A stretch of 64,000 nt of DNA, taken from positions 1-64,000 of the forward strand of contig NZ_AUJY01000002.1 in NCBI RefSeq assembly GCF_000424465.1. The letters are read 5' to 3'. Under the pieces are notes generated by a model that was not told where the DNA came from, made no database searches, and saw only the letters and a list, made by a program, of their open reading frames with translations. The stretch is from Butyrivibrio hungatei NK4A153. GTDB lineage: Bacteria; Bacillota; Clostridia; Lachnospirales; Lachnospiraceae. Made by a program: the position numbers and the translations under genes. This document shows positions 20,509 through 22,471 of this stretch, piece after piece; position 1 is the first letter of the stretch; each line of letters starts with the position of its first letter.

Positions 20509-20559
20509 TGAAATGCGTTAGCACTGCTGTTATTTGAAATATGCTGGTTAATTAGAGCG

Positions 20560-20590
20560 TTCCCGGCCGGATTTGTCCGGCTGGGAATTA
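20560..20590 (+). terminator. Probable terminator after tex
   Basis: TTCCCGGCCGGA (20560-20571) pairs with TCCGGCTGGGAA (20576-20587) around TTTG, with one G-T pair. The stem is strong but only TTATG follows, so the U-tract is weak. Confidence 0.6.
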
Positions 20591-20913
20591 TGTATATTAT
20601 GGAGATTGGAGTGCCGGTAATTTAATAAAGTATTCCGACATATAATTGATTAAAGCTCAGCGTACAGCTATTCTTGTATAGGAAATCAAATTAAACTTGC
20701 TAAATATTGTTTTGGAAAATATAATGTCTCTTTGGTATAAGAGTGTGGAGCATTATACTCAATTTTTCTTTTGTGGCTTGATTCAGAAACAAGCGTACAT
20801 CTTGCCATTTCCGGCATGATTTCATTTGGTGATTATTGTAGATTTTTGGGATTATTATACATTTTTGTCATGGCGCGCTACACAGAGGTGCTTGATTGGT
20901 GTAAGAACATAAC

Positions 20914-21231
20914 TACAGATAATAATTGTATAAGTGGAAGTGATTATCTGGGGTTCGCGCTACGTTTTGGAGAAAAACGGGAGGGAAACTGCCGAGATTC
21001 ACAGATAAAACTGGTAAAAAATCCCGATTATCTGTGATAGTGCGGTATTTTATGGCAAAAAAAGCAGAAAATCACAGATAAAATACGTTTAGGATCTGTC
21101 GTTTATCTGTGATTTTGCATCAAGGATTAGATAAGAGTGCTGAAAAACACAGATTAAACCTGTATATGTAGTAATTCTAATCTGGGGTTTCGAGGCAGAA
21201 GACAAAGAAATCTGAAGAAAAACACAGATAA
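20914..21231. repeat. Helically phased array of inverted CACAGATAA repeats
   Basis: Half-sites related to CACAGATAA occur at 20914, 21000, 21073, 21148 and 21223. Each of the first four faces an inverted partner TTATCTGTG-type arm at 20944, 21028, 21103 and 21178. Within a pair the arms are separated by 21, 19, 21 and 21 bases. Between pairs the gap is 47, then exactly 36, 36 and 36 bases. The third pair is perfect over 15 bases per arm; the fifth site has no partner. Sequence between arms is not conserved apart from a GCTGAAAAA-like lead-in. No gene fits here. The array ends about 40 bases before the PD-(D/E)xK-like gene. The rest of the gap 20590-20910 is A/T-rich with nothing I can name. 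Confidence 0.85.
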
Positions 21232-21270
21232 GATAATACAAAACTGTATTACAAACAATAAGGAGAAGAA

Positions 21271-22113
21271 ATGTTACAAATTCAAGATATAGTATGCACA
21301 TTGAAGAATAGGGAAAAGATACTTGAACGAGCGATTGCTATTGCACACAAATCAGAGAAGAGTTTGCCGTCTGGAAGGTTGAGGATCAATCATAACAGAG
21401 GTGTGGTGGAATATTATCGTATTACTGAAAAGAATGATACCCGCGGGAAATATTTAAAGAAGAATGATATAGAGTTCATAAAAAAGCTTGCTCAAAAGGA
21501 CTATTTTGATAAGCAGATAAAGTGTGCAAAAAAAGAACTTGAAGAGATTAGAAAAATACAAAAGATTTTGCAGGGAATAATTGAAAAGGAATCAAGCGGA
21601 AGTGATATTTTATATAAATCTGACTGTGTTTATTCGATGATGAGAGAGGAACGAAAAAAACTGATAGAACCAATTCTTTTAAGTAATCATGAATATGCTG
21701 ATCGGTGGAAAAAAGAGGAATACAAGAAAAATGAATATAGAAACGAAGAAAAAATATATCCAACAAAACAAGGCGATATGGTGAGATCTAAGTCGGAAGC
21801 TATGTTGGCGGATATGTACTATGATTTGGGAATCCCTTATCGCTATGAAGCAGAGCTTAGGCTTAACAGTGGCAAAAAAGTATATCCGGATTTCACGATA
21901 TTTGATGTAACAAGACTTAGGGAGATATACCATGAACATATGGGACTTCTTGATGACGAAGAATACAGATTGCATAATCTGAGAAAAATAGAAGAGTACC
22001 GGAAAAATGGGATTTTTGCCGGGAAAAATCTTTTTATAACACATGAATCTAGTGGATGTCCGCTTAATATACGAGAAATTGAAAAATGTGTAAGATGGTT
22101 GCTTGATATGTGA
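21271..22113 (+). CDS. PD-(D/E)xK nuclease-like protein of unknown role
   Basis: This is a 280-residue protein. Residues 60-160 are strongly charged and probably helical or coiled. The C-terminal half holds a motif set I associate with a PD-(D/E)xK-like family common in clostridia and their mobile elements: RSKSE (172-176), IPYRYEAEL (188-196), VYPDF with D207, then EIYHEHMG (218-225) where relatives have YYWEHFG, and NLFITHE near the end. The conserved acids suggest DNA or RNA cleavage, which is unproven. AAGGAG precedes the ATG. A phased inverted-repeat array lies directly upstream. Codon use is more A/T-rich than in the flanking tex and xylB genes, which suggests acquisition. Confidence 0.65.
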   Translation: MLQIQDIVCTLKNREKILERAIAIAHKSEKSLPSGRLRINHNRGVVEYYRITEKNDTRGKYLKKNDIEFIKKLAQKDYFDKQIKCAKKELEEIRKIQKILQGIIEKESSGSDILYKSDCVYSMMREERKKLIEPILLSNHEYADRWKKEEYKKNEYRNEEKIYPTKQGDMVRSKSEAMLADMYYDLGIPYRYEAELRLNSGKKVYPDFTIFDVTRLREIYHEHMGLLDDEEYRLHNLRKIEEYRKNGIFAGKNLFITHESSGCPLNIREIEKCVRWLLDM

Positions 22114-22471
22114 GTACCGGGAGAAGACTTATATGTACAATTAAAAGGGATTCATGCATAAAAAAGCAGGAAATACCATATAACAATATTTAATTAGATA
22201 TCAGCAAAAAATGGCGTGATTAGTAAGGGGGAAACGGGTATAATTGATTTGTATAATGCCGTAAAAGAAAAATCTTTTTTTCAAAGGCATCATATAGTGT
22301 AAATAATATGTCAGCGTCCGCAAATGGAGTGCTTTGACGAGGTTTGATCCGGCGGCGGTATTGATCGAAAGCCGGCGAGATATCACATCGGTTGCAAGAT
22401 GTGATGGATAAATGATCGTAAGTCAGTTGGTACCATATTCGGAACGCTATATATTTAATAGGAGGTTACAT
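22114..22471 (+). promoter_or_regulatory. Gap before xylB with an operator-like dyad
   Basis: No gene is visible. Two TATAAT sequences occur near 22239 and 22250. ATCACATC (22382-22389) and GATGTGAT (22398-22405) form a perfect 8-base inverted repeat with an 8-base centre, 66 bases before the xylB start. This is a plausible binding site for a sugar-responsive regulator, but none is encoded nearby. Confidence 0.45.

Follow-up and report, generated by a model that had tools for sequence, protein, structure and literature searches.

A nuclease gene and its helically phased repeat array in Butyrivibrio hungatei: what looks like a repeat-and-enzyme system of an undescribed kind

Introduction

What purpose does a strictly spaced array of inverted half-sites serve directly in front of a gene for a nuclease-like protein? 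We address this question for a stretch of 64,000 nucleotides (nt) from Butyrivibrio hungatei NK4A153 (contig NZ_AUJY01000002.1, positions 1 to 64,000; hereafter the window), in which four inverted pairs (dyads) and one lone half-site precede a gene for a 280-residue PD-(D/E)xK protein. An earlier note on this DNA had described the array, regarded it as a cooperative protein-DNA assembly, and suggested that the protein might bind or cut it, or that it might be an operator or origin. In short, we consider it probable that gene and array form a two-part mobilizing system, in which copies of the cognate dyad array are dispersed by the sequence-specific PD-(D/E)xK nuclease that recognizes it. The bolder proposal, namely a new class of mobile DNA in which a nuclease assembled on a phased array spreads copies of it through the genome with no transposase involved, many orthogonal pairs coexisting per cell, is plausible, and we stop just short of calling it probable.

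An Array Set in Whole Helical Turns

The array itself is real, and a reading of the sequence returned exactly the coordinates and distances reported before (Table 1), including gaps of 47, 36, 36, and 36 bases between pairs that have inner spacings of 21, 19, 21, and 21. With one mismatch allowed, CACAGATAA matches 32 times in the window versus 17.6 +/- 3.8 expected, a number reached by none of 100 shuffles. All four inverted pairs are present, but the first (TACAGATAA/TTATCTGGG) and the fourth (CACAGATTA/TAATCTGGG) are imperfect. The arms are conserved, whereas the claim that the intervening sequence is not holds only in part, as a weak directional core is kept across 75 dyads of the CACAGATAA half-site type.

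Table 1. Positions of the array, the nuclease gene, and the neighboring terminator in the window
Feature	Coordinates	Strand	Details
Whole array	20914-21231		four dyads and a lone half-site
Dyad 1	20914..20952	.	TACAGATAA-N21-TTATCTGGG; half-site starts 20914/20944
Dyad 2	21000..21036	.	CACAGATAA-N19-TTATCTGTG; half-site starts 21000/21028; axis 85 bp from dyad 1
Dyad 3	21073..21111	.	CACAGATAA-N21-TTATCTGTG; half-site starts 21073/21103; 74 bp from dyad 2
Dyad 4	21148..21186	.	CACAGATTA-N21-TAATCTGGG; half-site starts 21148/21178; 75 bp from dyad 3
Lone half-site CACAGATAA	21223..21231	+	in register, 75 bp past the left arm of dyad 4
280-residue PD-(D/E)xK nuclease gene	21271..22113	+	open reading frame; AAGGAG upstream, a good ribosome-binding site
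Protein layout			N-terminal helix 4-29; three-stranded sheet 36-62; long helix 64-103; nuclease domain about 139-277
Predicted terminator of upstream tex gene	20559..20588	+	13-bp stem with 8 G-C pairs; between tex and array

The idea that the 47-base gap represents 36 bases plus one helical turn proved correct well beyond this locus. Across 273 dyad-to-dyad steps at 79 genes, the distances fall at 51-54, 61-65, 73-76, 83-86, 94-96, and 103-106 base pairs (bp), with almost none in between. The best spacing unit is 10.60 bp (bootstrap 95% 10.50-10.72), i.e., the helical repeat, and the phasing resultant R amounts to 0.88, the highest value among 2000 jittered sets being 0.35. The CACAGATAA type alone provides 101 dyads at 24 loci, with 74 steps at 64, 72, 74-75, 85-86, 104, and 116 bp. 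This spacing pattern is direct sequence evidence of assembly on one face of double-stranded DNA. Within the sites of 29 diverged arrays, information is concentrated at 11-18 bp to either side of the dyad (reaching 1.5 bits), and a minor peak without symmetry lies on the dyad axis; dyad symmetry ranges from 0.80 to 0.94 in the 50 arrays for which profiles were made.

The same measurements bear on a reading at the RNA level, in which the inverted pairs would form transcript hairpins acting as guide, antitoxin, or leader RNA. Their position upstream of the gene would suit this role, and arm pairing within dyads is slightly in excess (1271 vs. 1144 of 1956). However, the spacing is quantized at the helical repeat of B-DNA, arrays also occur downstream of genes, and the inner 8 bp on each side of the ~20-bp spacer show no complementarity beyond expectation (1124 vs. 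1138); moreover, the left and right arms of the CACCGCAC type consistently differ at one non-pairing position. Phasing, downstream arrays, and the missing inner complementarity led us to discard an RNA hairpin or type III toxin-antitoxin-like array, and an RNA system in general is highly improbable.

Half-Site Recognition and the Nuclease Domain

Half-site and protein change together: the closer two proteins are in identity, the more alike are their half-sites (Mantel r 0.41, a value reached in 0 of 999 permutations, which gave 0.07 at most). Orthologues of 70-72% identity have CACAGATAA in common and differ in their spacers, and a 55% relative has ATAGGATAA. In a regression on protein segments, the weight lies almost solely on residues 30-62 (0.37; other segments <=0.09), and the predicted sheet (residues 36-62) is therefore likely the reading head for the half-site; the best single columns include 59, 56, and 57 (with a permutation null computed for every second column). 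Taken together, the 10.60-bp quantization and the co-variation strongly support the earlier view of a cooperative array with selection on both spacing and half-sites, and make recognition of the cognate array by the protein, mainly through residues 30-62, well supported on sequence grounds. The N-terminal domain that holds the sheet was predicted on its own with a predicted local distance difference test (pLDDT) score of 92.9, and structure comparison gave no PDB match above Z 3.4. An AP2/arm-type DNA-binding sheet had been suspected here, and no such match turned up among the candidates examined.

The nuclease-like character of the protein is borne out by its residues, an AlphaFold2 model (78 sequences; pLDDT 94.4), and its structural neighbors. 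It belongs to the PD-(D/E)xK superfamily by E176, D207, E222, and K/R239 together with the core fold, with H223 instead of the canonical ExK. Since the catalytic residues are invariant in 115 homologues (E176, PDF206-208, E222-H223, G225, Y232, and E259, with K or R at position 239), the enzyme is probably active. The nearest solved structures to the nuclease domain are the I-Bth0305I catalytic domain (Z 8.7, 91 residues) and TnsA (Z 8.2, 115 residues), followed by Bax1 (Z 8.0) and Vsr (Z 7.1). Pfam and NCBIfam contain no family above the curated cut-off for the window protein or its 77 relatives, with chance-level scattered matches only among these 78 members, and a full-length assignment of the window protein was found in none of PHROGs, Pfam, and NCBIfam.

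A defense function is brought up by the C-terminal residues 151-275, which match the nuclease domain of PADLOC candidate PDC-S68 (E 5e-28). The nuclease would then be directed at phages or plasmids, either staying inactive on its own array until invading DNA releases it or finding its targets in dyads of the invader. The related domain in PDC-S68/PDC-S69, the diversity of specificities, and the patchy distribution, which includes rumen Treponema and Fibrobacter, are consistent with such a role. On the other hand, only the nuclease domain is matched, and there it is part of much larger proteins: the PDC-S68 profiles span ~1200 positions, whereas the 280-residue window protein has its own N-terminal domain and array and matches with its C-terminal 125 residues only. 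Furthermore, a second component is not apparent at the window locus, and dispersed chromosomal arrays would be self-targets, making this explanation quite improbable.

Arrays Beside Homologous Genes

Arrays were called strictly, requiring at least three dyads of equal inner spacing within 900 bp of the gene and imposing no period. At 134 of 198 homologues such an array is present (107 upstream, 18 downstream, and 9 on both sides). The caller misses the window's own array because one of its inner spacings is 19, and the count is therefore conservative. For the first 118 loci, the median array score is 38 upstream versus 15 in shuffles and 15 downstream. Arrays reach up to eight dyads, and each has its own half-site sequence, the geometry being common to all. 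Paralogues in the window genome likewise have upstream arrays of inverted half-sites, with sequences differing among those inspected; GCACCGCAC is the half-site type of one of them. Arrays beside homologues, which the earlier note proposed to look for in other Lachnospiraceae, are widespread, with half-sites differing from gene to gene. At L178, L198, and L207, arrays on both sides of the gene carry the same half-site, giving the layout of a composite element.

These positions are informative with respect to autoregulation, where the protein would repress its own promoter via the array and orphan arrays would act as decoys titrating the protein. The upstream-only location in 107 homologues agrees with an operator, as do a promoter-like site upstream of the window array and the short distance to the window gene (given before as about 40 bases; 39 nt separate the last half-site from the ATG at 21271). 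Yet 18 homologues have their array downstream only, arrays of up to eight dyads dispersed over multiple loci exceed the needs of an operator, and promoter-like matches at the window locus are not clearly above shuffles. We consider an operator with decoys improbable. The simple operator or origin offered in the earlier note is unsupported because downstream-only arrays, arrays on both sides, and arrays far from the gene all occur.

Dispersal and Copying of Arrays

The pattern CACAGATAA-N17-23-TTATCTG is present in 12 of 61 Butyrivibrio genomes and abundant in 7, and a reversed-pattern control gave zero matches in the same 61. All four genomes with a window-type gene or remnant fall among the seven array-rich ones (p = 7e-5, kinship ignored). 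A second half-site type, cognate to paralogue L007, is similarly dispersed, mostly with a 52-bp step. The window genome contains two orphan CACAGATAA arrays far from the gene, both with counterparts in a related species. Orphan arrays lie outside long open reading frames (ORFs) in 20 of the 22 cases examined, in tandem (14), convergent (3), divergent (3), and unassigned (2) contexts. Dispersal to unrelated loci, which the earlier note would have held against a link between gene and array, does occur; but most genomes in which such copies occur also have the cognate gene, and this points to a REP/RAYT-like relation and does not refute the link.

Two arrays on different contigs of Butyrivibrio genome G034 are 84% identical over 178 bp, and identity falls to 27% and 32% just beyond the outermost half-sites. 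Judged from this alignment, at least one array has been copied as a discrete unit. At the first orphan array of the window genome, two relatives lack ~330 bp including the array, with both flanking genes conserved. Three relatives lack the window element at the site between tex and the xylulokinase gene, and in two of them other DNA occupies this site. No clean empty site with target duplication was obtained, the flanks being rearranged or too diverged.

Arguing for a mobilizing pair, one genome holds nine paralogues with different half-sites among those inspected. Critically speaking, several points weigh against it. Binding, cleavage, and movement are predictions from sequence, and the structural matches (Z 8-9) are at or near the level expected from the common fold. 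The genomes are related, and the above p value carries no phylogenetic correction; G032, G035, and G046 have several CACAGATAA arrays, and a close gene was not detected in them. No target-site duplication is seen at the one clean array copy (G034), and the two flanks of one G034 copy lie apart from each other in the window genome, so that rearrangement may have moved the array. Alignments of empty sites are too diverged for exact borders. Finally, 64 of the 198 homologues have no array under the strict caller; homologues lacking arrays had been named beforehand as counterevidence, and they are a minority.

The main rival is that the host itself benefits: the protein would coat the dispersed arrays as a nucleoid-associated or insulating organizer, its nuclease domain would serve repair or quality control, and host use would keep the copies. 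The mostly intergenic location of the arrays, half-sites that stay intact while spacers drift, the counterparts of both window-genome orphan arrays in a related species, and a phasing typical of cooperative nucleoprotein assemblies all fit. Nevertheless, CACAGATAA-type content differs widely between close relatives (14 to >60 matches), some congeners lack the gene or have it in decayed form, and a housekeeping function would not be expected to involve as many as nine paralogues in one genome, with half-sites that differ. An organizer of this type is thus unlikely, and we return to the mobilizing pair below.

Proposed Mechanism

In the mobilizing system that we favor, one homodimer would sit on each dyad, with the two half-sites read by its N-terminal sheets and the nuclease domains placed close to the dyad or between neighboring dimers. 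Adjacent dimers would touch along one face of the DNA, and it is this contact that would explain the phasing of the dyads. Cleavage in or beside an array might trigger recombinational repair, which could duplicate units, homogenize half-sites, and seed copies at new intergenic sites. A gene with its own array would then represent an autonomous element and the orphan arrays its non-autonomous copies.

Relation to Known Systems

For RAYTs (PMC2817692) and REPINs (PMC3116915), cognate inverted repeats have been described that stand beside the gene and co-evolve with it, and whose abundance follows the presence of the gene. As in REP/RAYT (REP/BIME, TnpA-REP), the repeats described here stand beside the cognate gene and are dispersed over intergenic regions, and their abundance correlates with the gene, with which they co-evolve. 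In contrast, the enzyme is a PD-(D/E)xK nuclease and not an HUH Y1 tyrosine transposase, arrays flank the gene on both sides in 9 of 198 cases only (the window gene being one-sided), and there is no hairpin-forming palindrome, the ~20-bp spacer having no inner complementarity. The sites are double stranded and form long dyad arrays in whole helical turns, copies number in the tens instead of hundreds, and the bacteria are different ones.

The best structural neighbor, I-Bth0305I, belongs to the PD-(D/E)xK/EDxHD homing endonucleases, which are also small, sequence-specific, and linked to mobility. Unlike homing endonucleases, the window gene comes without an intron or intein and shows no detectable sequence family; its cognate sites accompany the gene in arrays, whereas the target of homing is the empty allele, which is cut and receives a copy of the element. 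What the sites compared here show is presence/absence polymorphism only. With Tn7, the likeness concerns the nuclease domain of TnsA; TnsB, TnsC, or a DDE transposase was not recognized among the ORFs around the window locus, where the neighbors are tex and xylulokinase, nor was a pair of transposon ends.

The open literature yielded no system with this layout (most subscription papers fell outside the search), REP/RAYT coming nearest. To our knowledge, no named family combines a PD-(D/E)xK nuclease with helically phased arrays, and the whole looks like a repeat-and-enzyme system of an undescribed kind. These results tie a large unnamed nuclease family to a class of dispersed repeats, found in rumen and gut bacteria, with which it had not been linked before. 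The 10.60-bp quantized spacing across ~80 divergent proteins, moreover, marks cooperative DNA binding in the genome with unusual sharpness. Should the mechanism prove right, it would provide a route of repeat dispersal independent of transposases. It would also supply, ready for use, orthogonal DNA-binding nucleases of defined sequence specificity in which the segment that reads the DNA has been located.

Family Distribution

The window genome encodes nine family members, of which the eight others are 30-44% identical to the window protein, and 53 of the 61 Butyrivibrio genomes have a member. Outside this genus, the family is found in other Lachnospiraceae and in rumen and gut Treponema and Fibrobacter. 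In a phylum-wide sample, full-length members were seen within the same family only; all other matches covered just the nuclease domain, in most cases within a larger protein. Members in other phyla are L160, L168, L179, L183, L186, L192, and L201 (Treponema/Spirochaetales) and L198 and L208 (Fibrobacter); most have phased arrays, which suggests horizontal transfer between co-resident rumen and gut bacteria. A phage origin was rejected, as IMG/VR holds merely 10 distant relatives, with an array in 0 of the 9 scanned.

Genomic Setting

That the window gene is A/T-rich was confirmed by its 34% GC and a third-position GC content (GC3) of 0.32, versus a GC3 of 0.37-0.40 in its neighbors. Elsewhere in the window, a de novo scan gave no further array, using the strict caller that also misses the window's own. 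The tex-xylulokinase intergenic region (window 20509-22411) appears to be an integration hot spot. Unrelated DNA occupies this site in the relatives G032 and G046, and G012 has a short spacer; the DNA in G046 is apparently a reverse-strand membrane-protein gene, and that in G032 apparently a shortened remnant of it. In G025, the site holds a remnant of a window-type gene (G025:C98:12040-12264; 83% identical over 75 residues, with one in-frame stop), and this genome still has dispersed arrays.

Orphan arrays have further neighbors. A TGACTAA-type dyad (the half-site of paralogue L003) directly adjoins an orphan CACAGATAA array at L119:3340-3375, and different array types thus cluster in one intergenic region; a GGCACC-type element follows a CACAGATAA array at L215:1761-1805. 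Near orphan arrays in two Butyrivibrio genomes lies a separate dispersed repeat of ~148 bp (L213:2161-2308, also L214, L223, L225, L230, and L231). Another dispersed repeat, of ~135 bp, is 90-96% identical between genomes (L119:5396-5532, L214:2228-2363, and L219:1101-1232).
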